A DNA stretch of 64,000 bases from assembly GCF_010994095.1 (NCBI RefSeq), contig NZ_WJYO01000003.1, forward strand, positions 310,001 to 374,000, in the 5' to 3' direction. Made by a program: the position numbers and the translations under genes. The stretch comes from Mumia xiangluensis (GTDB lineage: Bacteria; Actinomycetota; Actinomycetes; Propionibacteriales; Nocardioidaceae). Of the stretch, positions 34,534 to 39,597 are shown piece after piece. A model generated the notes under the pieces. The model made no database searches, was not told where the DNA came from, and saw only the letters and a list, made by a program, of their open reading frames with translations. The stretch's first letter is position 1; each line of letters starts with the position of its first letter.

Positions 34534-35148
34534 ATGCGAACCCCAGACTTCACCCCCCAGGACACGTTCGACCCGACCTCCGGCCGGCGACGGCCACGCC
34601 CCGACCGACGCGATCCCCGAGGCCACGGCCGCGGATACGGACGCGGCGACGTGGGCATCGGCCCGGGCGGCTTCGGCCCCGGCTTCGGCGACCGTCGCCG
34701 CGGGGGCGGCCCTCGTGCACGACGCGGCACGGTCCGCCTCGCCGCACTCTCGGTGATCGCCGAGAACCCCACCAACGGCTACGGCCTCATCAACGCCTTT
34801 GGCGAGCGCACCGACGGACGGTGGCTCCCGAGCCCTGGCTCGATCTACCCGGTCCTGCGCCGGCTCACCGACGACGGGCTCATCGAGCCGACCGACGACG
34901 AGGCCGGCCAGTTCCGGATCACCGAGGCCGGCACGGCCTACCTCGGCGAGCACGCCGACGAGGTGGCCGGCGCGTGGGAGGGCAGCCGCCCTCGCTCGAA
35001 GAGCCAGGAGGACCTCGCCTCCAGCGCCCGCAAGCTCGTCCGGGCCGCCCGCCAGCTGGCCGACGACGCCAGTGACGACCAGCGCGAGCGCGCCACCGAG
35101 ATCCTCGACGAGGCCCGGCGCAGGCTCTACGGCCTGCTGGCCGAGTGA
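34534..35148 (+). CDS. PadR family transcriptional regulator
   Basis: 204 residues. An unusually Arg/Gly-rich, probably disordered N-terminus (about 1-65: RRRPRPDRRDPRGHGRGYG, GIGPGGFGPGFGDRRRGGG) precedes the PadR winged helix: TVRLAALSVIAENPTNGYGLINAFGERTDGRWLPSPGSIYPVLRRLTDDGLIEP. A C-terminal helix (about 160-204) gives dimerisation. AAGGAC lies 12 nt before the ATG. The MFS gene on the opposite strand ends only 3 bp past its stop, so co-regulation would have to be in trans. Confidence 0.92.
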   Translation: MRTPDFTPQDTFDPTSGRRRPRPDRRDPRGHGRGYGRGDVGIGPGGFGPGFGDRRRGGGPRARRGTVRLAALSVIAENPTNGYGLINAFGERTDGRWLPSPGSIYPVLRRLTDDGLIEPTDDEAGQFRITEAGTAYLGEHADEVAGAWEGSRPRSKSQEDLASSARKLVRAARQLADDASDDQRERATEILDEARRRLYGLLAE

Positions 35149-35151
35149 TGC

Positions 35152-36420
35152 CTACGGCTGCGGGTGGCGTGCGTCGTACCGGAGGAAGCCGCGCTGCAAA
35201 GTGACGGCGACCACGGCGCCGACCATGCACGCCACCCCGCCGTAGAGCATCGCTCTTCCGGGCGTCGTGAGCTCAGCGACCGACCCGGCAAGGAAGTCCC
35301 CAAGACGTGGCCCGCCGGCCACGACGACCGTGAAGACCCCCTGGAGCCGCCCGCGCAGCGCATCGGGTGCCGCCTGCTGGAGCATCGTGCTCCGGTACGC
35401 CGAGCTCACCATGTCCGCTCCCCCGGAGAAGGCGAGCATGGTCACGAGGAGCCACAGCACGCCGGGCGCGCCGATCGCGCTGACTCCGGCCAGAGCGACC
35501 GAACCCCCGTACGCCAGCACCGCGACGAGCACCGCGATGCCGTGACGGTGCACCCGACTGATCCATCCCGAGAACGCGAACGCCACGAGCGACCCGATCG
35601 CCGGAGCCGCCTGGAGCAGGCCGAGCGTCGACGGCCCGCCGACGTACACGGTGAGCGCCAGGGCTGGGAACAGCGCCCGAGGCTGTGCGAGCACCATCGC
35701 GAGCAGGTCGAGCACGAACGTCGTCCGCAGGTTCGCGGCGCCGCGCAGCCACGTGAAGCCCTCGACCACCGACCGCAGGCCCGGGACACGTCCCGTCGCG
35801 CCCTCGGGCGGGACCGGTTGGAGTCGCACCAACGCGTACAGCGCTGCCGTGAACGTCACCAGATCGATCGCGTACGTCGCTGCGACCCCCACCCACGCGA
35901 TCACCACCCCGCCCACGAGCGGCCCGACGGTGAAGCCGAGGTTGAACGCCGCCATGCCGAGCGCGTTGGCAGCGGGCAGCATCTCCGCGGGGACGAGCCG
36001 CGGGATGATCGCCGACCGTGCAGGGTTGTTCACCGCGAACAGGCCGGACTGGACAGCCACCACCCCGTACAGGAGCGCGACCGACTCGAGGTCCAGCAGT
36101 GCCTGCACGAGCAGCACCGCCGTACAGACCCACAGCCCGAGCGCGGTCACGATCGCGACCTTGCGCCGGTCGAAGTGGTCCACCAGCGCACCGCCGTACA
36201 GCCCCAGGGCGATCAGGGGCACCAGCGCGAACATCCCCACGAGCCCGACCGCGAACGACGACCCGGTGATCACGAAGACCTGGTAGGCCACGGTGACCGT
36301 CGCCATCTGCTGACCGAGCTGCGACACGGTCTGGCCGATCCACAACCGCCGGTAGTCGGCCGACTCCCGCAGCGGACGGATGTCGGTGAGGATCCTCCCG
36401 AACCCCCGACGTCTCGTCAC
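35152..36420 (-). CDS. MFS transporter (EntS/transmembrane secretion effector type)
   Basis: 422 residues, 12 membrane helices. The first segment (LRESADYRRLWIGQTVSQLGQQMATVTVAYQVF), ALVDHFDRRKVAIVTALG in loop 2-3, and NNPARSAIIPRLVPAEMLPAANAL are typical of the enterobactin-exporter/secretion-effector branch of the major facilitator superfamily. Members export siderophores, macrolides or other small compounds; the substrate is unknown here. A duplicate-family member lies at 54067-55440. Convergent with the PadR gene. Confidence 0.92.
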   Translation of the reverse strand: MTRRRGFGRILTDIRPLRESADYRRLWIGQTVSQLGQQMATVTVAYQVFVITGSSFAVGLVGMFALVPLIALGLYGGALVDHFDRRKVAIVTALGLWVCTAVLLVQALLDLESVALLYGVVAVQSGLFAVNNPARSAIIPRLVPAEMLPAANALGMAAFNLGFTVGPLVGGVVIAWVGVAATYAIDLVTFTAALYALVRLQPVPPEGATGRVPGLRSVVEGFTWLRGAANLRTTFVLDLLAMVLAQPRALFPALALTVYVGGPSTLGLLQAAPAIGSLVAFAFSGWISRVHRHGIAVLVAVLAYGGSVALAGVSAIGAPGVLWLLVTMLAFSGGADMVSSAYRSTMLQQAAPDALRGRLQGVFTVVVAGGPRLGDFLAGSVAELTTPGRAMLYGGVACMVGAVVAVTLQRGFLRYDARHPQP

Positions 36421-36475
36421 CAGACGATTGTCCCGCGCAACCAGCCCGGCGCCGTCCGACCGTCCGGATATTGGG

Positions 36476-36504
36476 TTGGCCGAACCCCCGATGCGGCGTA
36501 GCGT
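36476..36504 (+). promoter_or_regulatory. Promoter of an isolated plus-strand small-RNA/peptide unit
   Basis: TTGGCC (36476-36481), a 17-bp spacer and TAGCGT (36499-36504) form a plus-strand promoter of the common actinobacterial pattern. Both flanking protein genes run on the minus strand, so the promoter serves only the short region to its right. Predicted transcription start near 36511, ahead of the Shine-Dalgarno at 36521. Confidence 0.5.
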
Positions 36505-36536
36505 CGGTCGTACACGGGAAGGAGGTGGTCCGAAGA

Positions 36537-36575
36537 ATGAAGAGCTTCAGGACATGTGAGGTGGCTGTCAGCTAG
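36537..36575 (+). CDS. Putative 12-residue peptide MKSFRTCEVAVS
   Basis: An ATG follows the strongest ribosome site of the window (GGAGGTGG at 36521-36528, 8-nt spacing) and opens a 12-codon frame, MKSFRTCEVAVS, ended by TAG. One cysteine at position 7. A second, overlapping frame from ATG 36491 ends GGGPKNEELQDM, but its start lies inside the promoter spacer and so would not be transcribed from it. The nucleotide stretch around it looks like a segment I have seen conserved in other actinobacteria; this is memory, not a search result. It may be a leader peptide or part of a dual-function small RNA. Confidence 0.45.
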   Translation: MKSFRTCEVAVS

Positions 36576-36626
36576 TCACGGTTGTCGGGGATCACCCGCA
36601 CCGTGCGGCGAGTCCCAGCAGCCACC

Positions 36627-36678
36627 CGACCCGCGGGGGCCGAGGCGTTGTCCACTCGGCACTCAACCCCGCGGGTCG
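36627..36678 (+). terminator. Compound hairpin downstream of the small peptide frame
   Basis: Outer stem: CGACCCGCGGGG pairs perfectly over 12 bp with CCCCGCGGGTCG. Inner stem: GCCGAG with CTCGGC closing a 10-nt loop; a 6-nt bulge ACTCAA separates the two stems on the 3' side. It could end the small plus-strand transcript, or the pdxH transcript from the other side (pdxH stops 26 bp away), or be the functional structure of a small RNA. Confidence 0.65.
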
Positions 36679-36704
36679 TTCCATGCCCGGCGCAGGATCG
36701 GTCC

Positions 36705-37346
36705 CTACGGGGCGAGGCGCTCGCGCAGCCAGTGACCGTCGACCGCACGGAACCGGAGGCGGTCGTGCATGCGCCCGGTGCGCCCCTGCCAGAACTCCAC
36801 GGACTCCAGCGCCACGCGGTAGCCGCCCCACCACGGCGGCCTCGGCACGTCGCCGGGGTACGACGCGTCCGCTGCGTCGTACGCTCGCTCGAGCTCGACC
36901 CGGTCCTCCACCACGCGAGACTGGTGCGACGCGATCGCGCCGAGCCGCGACCCGCGGGGGCGCGAGGCGAAATAGGTGTCGGCCTCGTCGTCGCTGACCC
37001 GGCTCACCGCACCCTCGATCCGGACCTGTCGCTGGAGCGGGTGCCACAGCATCGCGAGCGCGGCGTGAGGATTGACCTCGAGCTCGTCGCTCTTGCGCGA
37101 CTCGTGGTTCGTGTAGAAGACCGCGCCGTCCGCGTCGAAGCCCTTGAGCAGCACGATGCGGACCGACGGGAGCGCGCCCGGCGACGCCGTCGCGAGCGCC
37201 ATCGCGTTGGGGTCGCGGAGGCCCGACGCCACCGCCTCGTCGAACCACCGGCCGAACAGTGCCACGGGGTCGTCCCCCGCGTCCGCCTCGGTCAGCCCGG
37301 CCGCCTCGTACTCCTCGCGCAGTGCCGCGATCGCCTCCGACTCCAT
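36705..37346 (-). CDS. pdxH: Pyridoxamine 5'-phosphate oxidase
   Basis: 213 residues; FMN enzyme making pyridoxal 5'-phosphate from pyridoxamine or pyridoxine phosphate. Signatures: DPNAMALATASPGALPSVRIVLLKGFDADGAVFYTNHESRKSDELEVNPHAALAMLWHPLQRQVRIEG (read in parts) for FMN binding, ASRPRGSRLGAIASHQS, and the C-terminal PROSITE-like VEFWQGRTGRMHDRLRF with RLAP end. ATG at 37346 gives MESEAIAALREEY; another ATG three codons up is possible. It is divergent from citrate synthase 2 with 52 bp between starts. Confidence 0.96.
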   Translation of the reverse strand: MESEAIAALREEYEAAGLTEADAGDDPVALFGRWFDEAVASGLRDPNAMALATASPGALPSVRIVLLKGFDADGAVFYTNHESRKSDELEVNPHAALAMLWHPLQRQVRIEGAVSRVSDDEADTYFASRPRGSRLGAIASHQSRVVEDRVELERAYDAADASYPGDVPRPPWWGGYRVALESVEFWQGRTGRMHDRLRFRAVDGHWLRERLAP

Positions 37347-37398
37347 GAACAGCACCCTACGAGACTGCGCCGGGTGTGATCAGGGGCACAATGGCCCA

Positions 37399-38517
37399 AT
37401 GACTGACGCACCCGACACGGCAAAGGTCCACGAAGGCCTCGAAGGCGTCATCGCCTTCGCGACGGAGATCGCCGAACCGGACAAGGAAGGCTCCGCGCTG
37501 CGCTACCGCGGAGTCGACATCGAGGACCTCGTCGGCAGCGTGCCGTTCGAGAAGATCTGGGGCCTCCTGGTCGACGGGACGTACGAGCCGGGGCTGCCGC
37601 CGGCGGAGCCGTTCCCCATCCCGGTGCACTCCGGTGACATCCGTGTCGACGTGCAGAGCGCGATCGCGCTGACGGCACCTGCGTGGGGGCTGCGCCAGCT
37701 GTACGACATCGAGCCGGAGCAGGCCCGTGACGACCTGGCGCGCACCGCGGTGATGGTGCTGTCGTACGTCGCGCAGGCGGCCCGCGGAATCGGCCAGCCG
37801 ATGGTGCCGCAGGCCGAGATCGACAAGGCGACCACGATCACGGAGCGCTTCTTGACCCGGTGGCGCGGCGAGGCGAACCCGGCGCACGTGAAGGCGATCG
37901 ACGCGTACTGGGCGTCGGCCGCCGAGCACGGCATGAACGCCTCCACGTTCACCGCGCGCGTCATCGCGTCGACGGGCGCCGACGTCGCCGCTGCGCTGTC
38001 GGGTGCCGTCGGCGCGATGTCCGGCCCGCTGCACGGCGGCGCTCCCTCGCGAGTGCTCGGCATGATCGCCGACGTCGAGAAGAGCGACGACGCCCGGACG
38101 TACGTGAAGGGGCTGCTCGACTCCGGCGAGCGCCTGATGGGGTTCGGCCACCGCGTCTACCGTGCGGAGGATCCGCGCGCGCGGGTGCTCCGCCGTACGG
38201 CCCGTGAGCTGGATGCTCCGCGCTACGCGGTCGCCGTCGCCCTCGAGGAGGCGGCGCTGGCCGAGCTGCGCGAGCGTCGCCCGGACCGTGTCCTGGAGAC
38301 CAACGTCGAGTTCTGGGCGGCGATCGTGCTCGACTTCGCGGAGATCCCGCCGCACATGTTCACGTCGATGTTCACCTGTGCCCGCACGGCCGGGTGGAGC
38401 GCGCACATCCTCGAGCAGAAGCGCAAGGGCCGCCTGATCCGCCCGTCGGCGATCTACACCGGCCCGCCGTCGCGCAAGCCGCAGGACGTCGCCGGCTGGA
38501 ACCCCGCCTGGGGCTAG
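37399..38517 (+). CDS. citA: Citrate synthase 2
   Basis: 372 residues, short type II-like citrate synthase, condensing acetyl-CoA (or propionyl-CoA in methylcitrate enzymes) with oxaloacetate. Catalytic histidines are at 212 (GPLHGGAPSRVL) and 251 (MGFGHRVYRAEDPRA); EHGMNASTFTARV is at 176-188. The third catalytic residue, Asp in the usual NVDFYSG, is replaced by Glu304 in TNVEFWAAIVLDFAEIPPHM. That pattern is, to my knowledge, normal for actinobacterial citrate synthase 2. Arginine for the terminal carboxylate is at KRKGRLIRPSA. A short ATG at 37391 is out of frame with the gene. Confidence 0.92.
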   Translation: MTDAPDTAKVHEGLEGVIAFATEIAEPDKEGSALRYRGVDIEDLVGSVPFEKIWGLLVDGTYEPGLPPAEPFPIPVHSGDIRVDVQSAIALTAPAWGLRQLYDIEPEQARDDLARTAVMVLSYVAQAARGIGQPMVPQAEIDKATTITERFLTRWRGEANPAHVKAIDAYWASAAEHGMNASTFTARVIASTGADVAAALSGAVGAMSGPLHGGAPSRVLGMIADVEKSDDARTYVKGLLDSGERLMGFGHRVYRAEDPRARVLRRTARELDAPRYAVAVALEEAALAELRERRPDRVLETNVEFWAAIVLDFAEIPPHMFTSMFTCARTAGWSAHILEQKRKGRLIRPSAIYTGPPSRKPQDVAGWNPAWG

Positions 38518-38531
38518 CGGGACGCCGCCGC

Positions 38532-38578
38532 GTGAGCTGGTGCGGGTCTGACGATCCGCGGTTACCGCACCAGCTCAC
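38532..38578. terminator. Bidirectional terminator between citA and meaB
   Basis: GTGAGCTGGTGCGG pairs perfectly over 14 bp with CCGCACCAGCTCAC around a 19-nt loop. It lies 14 bp past the citrate synthase stop and 29 bp past the meaB stop on the other strand, so it serves both converging units. Confidence 0.75.
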
Positions 38579-38607
38579 ACCAGAACCGAGTCGCCCCGGC
38601 GGGCTGG

Positions 38608-39597
38608 TCAGCGCTGGTCGTACGCGGCCAGGATCGCGTCGGCGGCGTTCGTGGCAGGCATCTCCCCGGACAGGACAGCCGCACGGACGTCGTCCAGCAC
38701 ACCCCGCACCGCCTCCGAGCGCCGCAGCCGCTGGTCGAGCTCGTCACGCACGAGTGCCCACATGAACTCGAGCTGCTGTGCCGCGCGCTTCTCGCGCAGA
38801 CCCGCGGCGCCGAGGAACTCGCGGTGCCGCAGCACGCGCAGCCAGACCGTGTCCACGTCGACGCCCTCGAGGCCGGAGCAGGTGAGCACCGGCGGGACCC
38901 ACCCCGTACCTCCGGCGTGGACCAGCCGGATCGCGCCGGCGAGGTCCTTCGCGGCGACCCGGGCCTCCGGCTCGCGGTCACCGTCGGCCTTGTTGACCGC
39001 GATGACGTCGGCGATCTCGAGGATGCCCTTCTTGATGCCCTGGAGCTGGTCGCCGGTGCGCGCCAGCGTGAGGAACAGGAACGTGTCCACCATCCCGGCG
39101 ACGGTGACCTCCGACTGCCCGACACCCACGGTCTCGACCAGCACCACGTCGAAGCCGGCGGCCTCCAGCACCAGGATCGCCTGCGTGCTCGCGCGAGCCA
39201 CACCGCCGAGGGTGCCGGCCGACGGCGAGGGACGGATGTACGCCCGGGGGTCCGCCGCGAGCTCCGGCATCCGGGTCTTGTCCCCGAGCACCGAGCCCCC
39301 CGTGCGTACCGACGACGGGTCGACCGCGAGCACACCGACCTTGTGGTCCGTCCCGGTCAGATAGGTCCCGAGCGTCTCGATGAAGGTCGACTTGCCGACG
39401 CCGGGGACGCCCGAGATGCCGACACGCACGGCCCCGCCCGCGTGCGGGGTCAGCAGCGCGAGCAGCTCGCGCGCTGCCGCGCGGTGGTCGTCGCGACGCG
39501 ACTCGACCAGCGTGATCGCGCGCGCGACCGCGGCACGCTGACCGTCACGCACGCGCGCGGCCAGCTCCTCGACGTCGATCGAGCGCGCGTCGCTCAA
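38608..39597 (-). CDS. meaB: Methylmalonyl-CoA mutase-associated GTPase MeaB
   Basis: 329 residues, G3E-type P-loop GTPase that protects methylmalonyl-CoA mutase and gates delivery of adenosylcobalamin. P-loop GVPGVGKST at 63-71, then VLAVDPSSVRTGGSVLGDKTRM, VETVGVGQSEV (switch II region), and the base-recognition NKADGD. The C-terminal dimerisation arm is present (REKRAAQQLEFMWALVRDEL). It follows mutB at 7 bp in the operon mutA-mutB-meaB. Confidence 0.96.
   Translation of the reverse strand: MSDARSIDVEELAARVRDGQRAAVARAITLVESRRDDHRAAARELLALLTPHAGGAVRVGISGVPGVGKSTFIETLGTYLTGTDHKVGVLAVDPSSVRTGGSVLGDKTRMPELAADPRAYIRPSPSAGTLGGVARASTQAILVLEAAGFDVVLVETVGVGQSEVTVAGMVDTFLFLTLARTGDQLQGIKKGILEIADVIAVNKADGDREPEARVAAKDLAGAIRLVHAGGTGWVPPVLTCSGLEGVDVDTVWLRVLRHREFLGAAGLREKRAAQQLEFMWALVRDELDQRLRRSEAVRGVLDDVRAAVLSGEMPATNAADAILAAYDQR

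Follow-up and report, generated by a model that had tools for sequence, protein, structure and literature searches.

The Ms_IGR-5 RNA of Mumia xiangluensis combines a leader complementary to the 16S rRNA tail with a conserved short reading frame inside its fold

What is the function of a small plus-strand unit with a promoter, a strong Shine-Dalgarno (SD) sequence, a 12-codon open reading frame (ORF) and a compound hairpin that lies between two minus-strand genes? The question was raised by positions 36476-36678 (+) of the window, the whole stretch of 64,000 nucleotides analysed here (Mumia xiangluensis, contig NZ_WJYO01000003.1). An earlier note, written from the letters of the window, had described a self-contained unit at this place and had offered a dual-function small RNA, a leader peptide or a regulatory peptide as explanations. 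All the parts that it named were located in the window sequence, and its description of the unit was borne out: the locus is flanked by two minus-strand genes, an MFS gene and pdxH, of which pdxH is convergent.

Family, spread and promoter of the RNA

The search with Rfam models revealed that positions 36512..36684 (+) matched family RF02471 (Ms_IGR-5, entered as "Actinobacteria sRNA") with 102.8 bits against a gathering cut-off of 45 (E 3.2e-23). The match covered model positions 1-184 of 184 and was not cut off, so that both the score above the cut-off and the coverage of the whole model place the RNA in this family, and it was the single match in the genome. The earlier note had suspected conservation across actinobacteria and had suggested a covariation-aware search of their genomes; the match to the family was full-length, and helices covaried among the homologs. 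At E<=0.001, RF02471 was found in 249 of 394 class-wide genomes (247 above the cut-off), in 29 of 30 relatives (all 29 above) and in 70 of 396 phylum-wide genomes (35 above), and in 0 of 14 named control genomes. A pattern made of the SD and a GAGGTG core matched 103 of the 396 phylum-wide genomes, some of them by chance, as the reversed-pattern control matched 15 genomes. Ms_IGR-5 is not universal across the phylum and is therefore dispensable. In one sister genus of the family of the window (g2; G214 and others), 11 of 12 genomes gave no match while the other sampled genera did, which is a clade-wide loss or divergence.

For comparison, a set of 135 homologs was assembled from the 75 best matches and 60 loci picked from the match lists to span families; 27 of them (L081-L095 and L124-L135) scored 25-45 bits, below the Rfam cut-off. 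The ORF, P1, P2 and 16S counts take in all 135, and the shuffling and strand re-dealing controls leave shared ancestry in. The promoter that had been proposed (36476..36504, +) was confirmed in sequence, with a -35 element TTGGCC (36476-36481), a 17-nt spacer and a -10 element TAGCGT (36499-36504). At the expected position, 116 of 135 homologs had the -10 form TANNNT, which occurred in 0.9% of shifted control windows; 95 of these 116 showed TTG, TTC or GTG at a spacing of 16-18 nt, a -35 count that was uncontrolled. A simple scan of 36000-37500 found neither sigma-70 sites nor T-tailed terminators.

The 16S-complementary leader and the short reading frame

The SD GGAGGTGG (36521-36528, +), followed after 8 nt by the ATG at 36537, lay within an extended SD (36516..36532, +), a 17-nt complement, with G-U pairs allowed, of the 16S 3' tail. 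This was established by comparison of the homologs and with the tail of the genome's own 16S, which was read and recognised as SSU rRNA. Contiguous complementarity of the same kind extended over 16-20 nt in 134 homologs and over 12 nt in one, 20 nt being the full length of the tail supplied for the count. From SD positions -4 to +10, the variation among the 135 homologs was almost only A/G or C/T, and therefore pairing with an invariant partner was kept. The earlier note had called this the best SD of the window, and its duplex with the 16S tail was indeed the strongest when both strands were scored every 3 nt (-29.5 kcal/mol), but the runner-up sites followed at -29.1 and -28.8 kcal/mol. Ranking by duplex energy alone was rejected because these other sites came within 0.4-0.7 kcal/mol. 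Uniqueness by a 12-nt SD pattern, AGGAGGTGRTCC, was likewise rejected because the genome contains this pattern 7 times. Distinctiveness is limited to the longer match: RRRAGGAGGTGRTYC, the exact pattern of 15 nt, occurred at 2 places, the Ms_IGR-5 leader and the antisense of 16S.

The pairing of the leader stopped at the last U of the tail, which we take to be the mature 16S 3' end. In the precursor an A follows, and T was found opposite to this A in none of the homologs. An end of pairing at the mature end fits binding to mature subunits, and the leader may accordingly bind mature 30S subunits. At position 36528, 129 of 135 homologs had G, a base that pairs less well with 16S than A would; perhaps this G serves a second partner inside the RNA. 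An alternative local hairpin, in which GGUCC in the SD pairs with GGAC in the ORF, was inseparable from the 16S pairing by conservation.

The 12-codon ORF that had been read from the window was present, encoding MKSFRTCEVAVS at 36537..36575 (+), from the ATG at 36537 to the TAG at 36573-36575. An in-frame ORF of 10-15 codons was found in 135 of 135 homologs, starting 6-11 nt after GGAGGTG (9 nt in the window). The start codons were ATG in 54, TTG in 51, GTG in 14, CTG in 8, ATT in 4, ATC in 3 and ACG in 1, and the stop codons TAG in 116, TGA in 14 and TAA in 5. With ATG, GTG or TTG starts only, the count was 119 of 135, compared with 2.9 (max 8) for the same caller when both free ends were shuffled and 17.9 (max 30) when only the 5' part was; with all near-cognate starts, the corresponding null values were 6.2 (max 12) and 41.4 (max 57). 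ATG, GTG or TTG was used by 104 of 108 homologs above the Rfam cut-off and by 15 of 27 below it, which places the unusual starts mostly in deep lineages. ATT, which is unusual as a start codon outside infC-like cases, recurred in distant lineages (L043, L086, L087, L126, L312, L313 and L314).

Inside the ORF, a second SD-like element, GAGGTG (36558..36563, +), was present in all 135 homologs, and the stop codon began 15 nt after its first base in the window and in 131 homologs, and 14 nt after it in 4. The distance from the SD to GAGGTG was spread over the three frames (73/42/20), whereas the distance from the start codon to GAGGTG was a multiple of three in 131 homologs. In the other four (L124, L125, L126 and L133, all below the cut-off) this distance left a remainder of 1, so that the core stood in another frame and the peptides were unrelated, and yet the place of the stop (14 nt) was nearly kept. 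Since this place is kept across a frame switch, selection seems to concern that translation takes place and where it ends more than which peptide is made, and the ORF seems to outlive its peptide. Comparison of the homologs shows a short ORF under selection, and it is very likely translated.

A leader of this kind could in principle work as a sponge for 30S subunits, in which the RNA need only bind the 16S tail and hold the subunits, with translation as a by-product. The length of the complementarity and its energy (a mean of -31.2 kcal/mol over the homologs, against -13.1 kcal/mol for a hand-entered AGGAGG yardstick) speak for such a sponge, as does the frequency of weak starts. Pure binding has no need of a frame, a start and a stop, however, and these were kept in 135 of 135 homologs and in other phyla, so that we consider this explanation unlikely.

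A fold that runs through the reading frame

The predicted fold had a free energy of -84.6 kcal/mol (z -3.54), and none of 200 shuffles was equally stable. Helix P1 joins the bases just upstream of the SD purines, CACG (36513..36516, +), to the bases of the ORF that end at the G of GAGG, TGTG (36555..36558, +), with one G-U pair. At least four contiguous pairs of P1 were formed in 125 of 135 homologs: 100 of 108 above the cut-off, compared with 72.7 (max 80) after re-dealing of the strands, and 25 of 27 below it, compared with 8.1 (max 14). Among 53 distinct strand pairs, which included CACG/CGTG, CACA/TGTG, CCAG/CTGG, CTTC/GAAG, CGTA/TACG and CAGG/CCTG, 44 were paired against 21.6 (max 32) re-dealt. 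Helix P2, derived from pairing in the homologs, joins GGTGGCTGT in the ORF (36560..36568, +) to GCAGCCACC (36618..36626, +). Its general form, GGTGGCTGC with GCAGYCACC, was paired at 8 or 9 of 9 positions in 112 of 135 homologs. Over 67 distinct combinations, P2 had a mean of 6.91 Watson-Crick pairs against 6.22 (max 6.57) in the control, and 50 combinations had at least 8 positions paired against 39.7 (max 47), a thin margin.

The 3' part of the RNA is a terminator-like hairpin (36627..36678, +), in agreement with the two-part hairpin of 18 bp in the earlier note: P3 contributes 12 bp (36627-36638 with 36667-36678) and the inner P3a 6 bp (36639-36644 with 36655-36660). The loop of P3a contains TGTCC (36649..36653, +), which pairs with GGACA of the ORF (36550..36554, +) to form a pseudoknot, in general GGACN with NGUCC. 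Over 86 distinct combinations, the mean was 5.07 Watson-Crick pairs against 4.44 (max 4.74). The base after GGAC matched the base before GUCC in 74 of 108 homologs (TA 26, GC 21, CG 17, AT 10), and the other flanking column was weaker (51 of 108 Watson-Crick); 21 loci whose structure by itself gave no P3a loop were left out of the pseudoknot count, and among the loops that were called some were visibly wrong. Between the ORF and the hairpin, the internal stem CACGGT/ACCGTG was present one base away from where it had been placed, at 36577..36605 (+; CACGGT 36577-36582, ACCGTG 36600-36605), in a middle region of variable length among the homologs. Before the 3' strand of P2, GAGTCCCA (36610..36617, +) was the local form of a conserved AAUNCC-like motif, which 107 of 135 homologs contained, compared with 10% of shuffled segments.

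These comparisons among homologs show P1, P2 and the pseudoknot, and each conserved stretch of the ORF doubles as a strand of one of them, the pseudoknot joining it to the terminator loop. As to the contrast that the earlier note had drawn between conservation of codons and compensatory change in hairpins, the reading frame was kept in 135 of 135 homologs, and the conserved codons are strands of covarying helices. Because the ORF shares its codons with P1, P2 and the pseudoknot, a translated RNA should be unable to fold, and a folded one should resist translation.

On balance, with little more than even confidence, we read the stand-alone Ms_IGR-5 RNA as a mini-mRNA toggled by the ribosome. 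Its own promoter and terminator would yield an RNA of about 170 nt, and the leader, by pairing with as many as 17 nt of the 16S 3' tail, would capture 30S subunits strongly. A ribosome would initiate 9 nt after GGAGGTG, read 12 codons and terminate, and to do so it would have to open the pseudoknot, P1 and P2; the folded RNA, conversely, would block the first codons and hinder the loading of ribosomes. When the stop codon occupies the A site, GAGGTG would stand 6 nt ahead of the codon in the P site, much as an SD is spaced for initiation, and the terminating ribosome may be held there by it. The RNA would in this way report, or act on, ribosome occupancy, and might sense or buffer 30S or initiation capacity. 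The combination of weak starts with an extreme SD suggests that initiation, not elongation, is the gauge. The architecture of Ms_IGR-5 is nearly certain, and its role in ribosome supply is a working guess.

The in-frame conservation also fits a micropeptide gene, in which the 12-residue product would be the effector and the RNA its mRNA. Thr-x-Glu-Val was found in 120 of the 131 homologs with the common frame, and Glu-Val in 131 of 135. However, the conserved codons coincide with helix strands, which may account for Glu-Val, codons 2-4 vary widely (by eye), and the residue before Glu-Val was Arg in 68, Cys in 42, Leu in 12 and another in 9 of the 131. As Cys was thus not kept (42 of 131), the regulatory Cys peptide of the earlier note, in the form of a Cys-responsive peptide, was rejected. 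The unrelated peptides of L124, L125, L126 and L133 further disfavour a micropeptide, since its sequence is not kept in every homolog, and we rate this explanation as quite unlikely.

A noncoding sRNA acting in trans would pair with target mRNAs, and the ORF would be incidental. Ms_IGR-5 was found as an sRNA in M. smegmatis; a review (PMC4109619) states that northern blots confirmed the sRNAs of that study and that their ends were mapped by 5' RACE, and PMC10454040 makes IGR-5 a member of this set, overlapping ncMSMEG15794c and with RNA-seq support. The copy of S. lividans is described as validated by RNA-seq (PMC8079986), and Ms_IGR-5 of S. avermitilis is listed among small-RNA transcription units delimited by mapping of where they start and end (PMC8780764). 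For M. abscessus and M. smegmatis, PMC4974804 gives significant ribosomal reads on MS_IGR-5, with the caution that noncoding RNAs may turn up in ribosome preparations. These data of others support transcripts in mycobacteria and streptomycetes and ribosome footprints in mycobacteria; a separate small transcript is thus reported in relatives and predicted in Mumia xiangluensis. In the same review (PMC4109619), mycobacteria are said to be without an Hfq homolog, and the passages of PMC8388888 and PMC11133741 that were covered had no bearing on Ms_IGR-5. The portions of the literature covered, which left the original M. smegmatis study and most subscription papers outside their scope, contained no function of Ms_IGR-5 and no ORF, 16S-tail complement or non-actinobacterial occurrence for it. 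Against an incidental ORF stand the ORF counts far above the shuffle nulls and the constant distance of the stop in independently retrieved sets, and a purely trans-acting sRNA is in our judgement very unlikely.

A leader peptide or attenuator acting in cis, for which the short ORF followed by a terminator-like hairpin might speak, can hardly be entertained and was rejected on gene order, because the next gene on the plus strand is that of citrate synthase (from 37399), beyond the convergent pdxH, and the nearest called downstream gene was on the opposite strand in 86, on the same strand in 44 and absent in 5 of the 135 homologs (86 of the 130 having one), a rough count, as the crude caller overlooked pdxH itself and put the locus of the window among the 44, and flanking proteins vary by lineage (by eye). 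Comparison of loci likewise points to the lack of a gene controlled in cis. By Pfam, the genes around the RNA were MFS_3 (-), pyridoxamine phosphate oxidase, that is pdxH (-), and citrate synthase (+). No conserved neighbour gene emerged, the largest cluster of similar flanking ORFs taking in 39 of 135 loci with shadow ORFs mixed in. Where the citrate synthase gene ends, 38514-38576 (+) weakly matched Rfam Ms_IGR-8 (20.6 bits against a cut-off of 44), and this match is perhaps the terminator hairpin of that gene.

Occurrence beyond Actinobacteria and comparison with known systems

Named genomes were searched with the pattern of SD plus GAGGTG core, which is blind to start, stop and fold. Of the 80 matches listed, 70 had actinobacterial titles, and 67 of these loci contained the ORF; 10 had other titles, and 9 of these contained it. 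The 9 were, among the matches listed, Sumerlaeota, Deltaproteobacteria (2), Bryobacterales (2), Zixibacteria, Nitrospirae, a doubtful Planctomycetaceae copy in another frame and one Acidobacteriota bin; the tenth, under another Acidobacteria title, lacked the ORF. L213, titled Acidobacteriota, carries a copy of acidimicrobial type and is probably a misbinned acidimicrobial contig. In the order of one Bryobacterales genome, the pattern occurred in 15 of 61 genomes (reversed control 1), with the ORF in 14 of 15 loci, all with ATG starts; in the phylum of the Zixibacteria genome, it occurred in 15 of 98 genomes (reversed control 0), with the ORF in 15 of 15. In two largely coinciding samples of 198 genomes from the phylum of the two Deltaproteobacteria genomes, the ORF was confined to the seed genomes: five other pattern-matching genomes were without it, and among the 7 loci retrieved it was present only in that of the seed genome itself. 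In every ORF locus of these pattern sets the stop lay 15 nt from the core, except in the doubtful Planctomycetaceae copy, where it lay at 14.

Under a looser rule, P1 was formed in 58 of the 67 loci with actinobacterial titles among the matches listed and in 13 of 15 loci of the Zixibacteria phylum, compared with 4.5 (max 9) re-dealt, and in 0 of 14 loci of the Bryobacterales order, where the SD-ORF module is present. What is common to the whole set is therefore this module and not the fold. Several non-actinobacterial copies have a hairpin with a T-run at the place of P3. When 8 non-actinobacterial loci were scanned with RF02471, L198 (Zixibacteria) reached 55.9 bits, above the cut-off, and five scored 24.5-29.5. 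In the doubtful Planctomycetaceae copy, the 3' part (L203 3914-3992, -) weakly matched Rfam Pxr (RF01812; 31.5 bits, cut-off 80).

A phage or plasmid origin was rejected: blastn with 36470-36700 matched no phage record, 0 of 12 pattern matches in viral contigs had the ORF, and the sole "plasmid" record matched was Nocardia farcinica plasmid 2, of 2.66 Mb, which lists 2 features altogether and none at the matching place.

Ms_IGR-5 could belong to an ancient class of "ribosome-gauge" RNAs that spans several phyla and of which it would be the actinobacterial branch, a tentative proposal that we rate as less likely than not. In such RNAs, a very long complement of the 16S tail would load a ribosome at an often weak start, 10-15 codons would give a single pass through the RNA's own fold, an internal SD at a constant distance would hold the ribosome at the stop, and the supply of free 30S subunits or initiation-factor capacity would be sensed or buffered; CC2171 may be a further branch. 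Were the RNA to gauge ribosome supply, it would give direct access to the link between RNA regulation and translation capacity in actinobacteria, and each part of it yields a prediction that can be checked in laboratory strains.

Among known systems, tmRNA has a short internal ORF and a pseudoknot and acts on ribosomes. The short ORF and the pseudoknot are alike in Ms_IGR-5, but the tRNA-like domain is absent from the locus, and a tmRNA-like reading was rejected, as ARAGORN found 0 tRNA or tmRNA genes at 35500-37500. The Caulobacter sRNA CC2171 (RF01867) has in its consensus, close to the 5' end, GAAAGGAGGUGAUCCAG, which is complementary to the 16S tail over 17 nt, and it was the only other Rfam family matched by the antisense of the tail (E 8.2). 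A putative frame led by GTG, of about 22 codons, can be read in the consensus by eye, and the printed form is without the GAGGUG core. RF01867 gave no match at E<=1 in 35000-39000 of the window and 0 of 9 at E<=0.001 in the genomes behind the loci with non-actinobacterial titles; L230 2351-2528 (-) scored 25.5 bits for CC2171 (cut-off 75) beside 27.0 for RF02471. A relation of CC2171 to Ms_IGR-5 is a lead.

Of the three explanations in the earlier note, the dual-function small RNA came nearest. Dual-function sRNAs such as SgrS/SgrT and RNAIII/hld are RNAs of regulatory size with a translated short ORF, in which the peptide acts as one effector and base pairing as another. Ms_IGR-5 shares the regulatory size and the short, apparently selected ORF with them; in contrast to them, the identity of its peptide is not strictly kept and its ORF overlaps its fold. 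The nearest known system is RF02471 itself, which the window matches over its full length and above the gathering score. As drawn in Rfam, the family pairs the SD region with the tail of the ORF, while the homologs compared here support P1, P2, the pseudoknot and the ORF. The complement of the leader to the 16S tail, the conserved ORF, the fixed internal GAGGTG, the fold that overlaps the ORF and the recurrence outside Actinobacteria are added by the present analysis: in a family filed as an actinobacterial sRNA there are a leader complementary to 16S and a reading frame, both of which occur again in other phyla.
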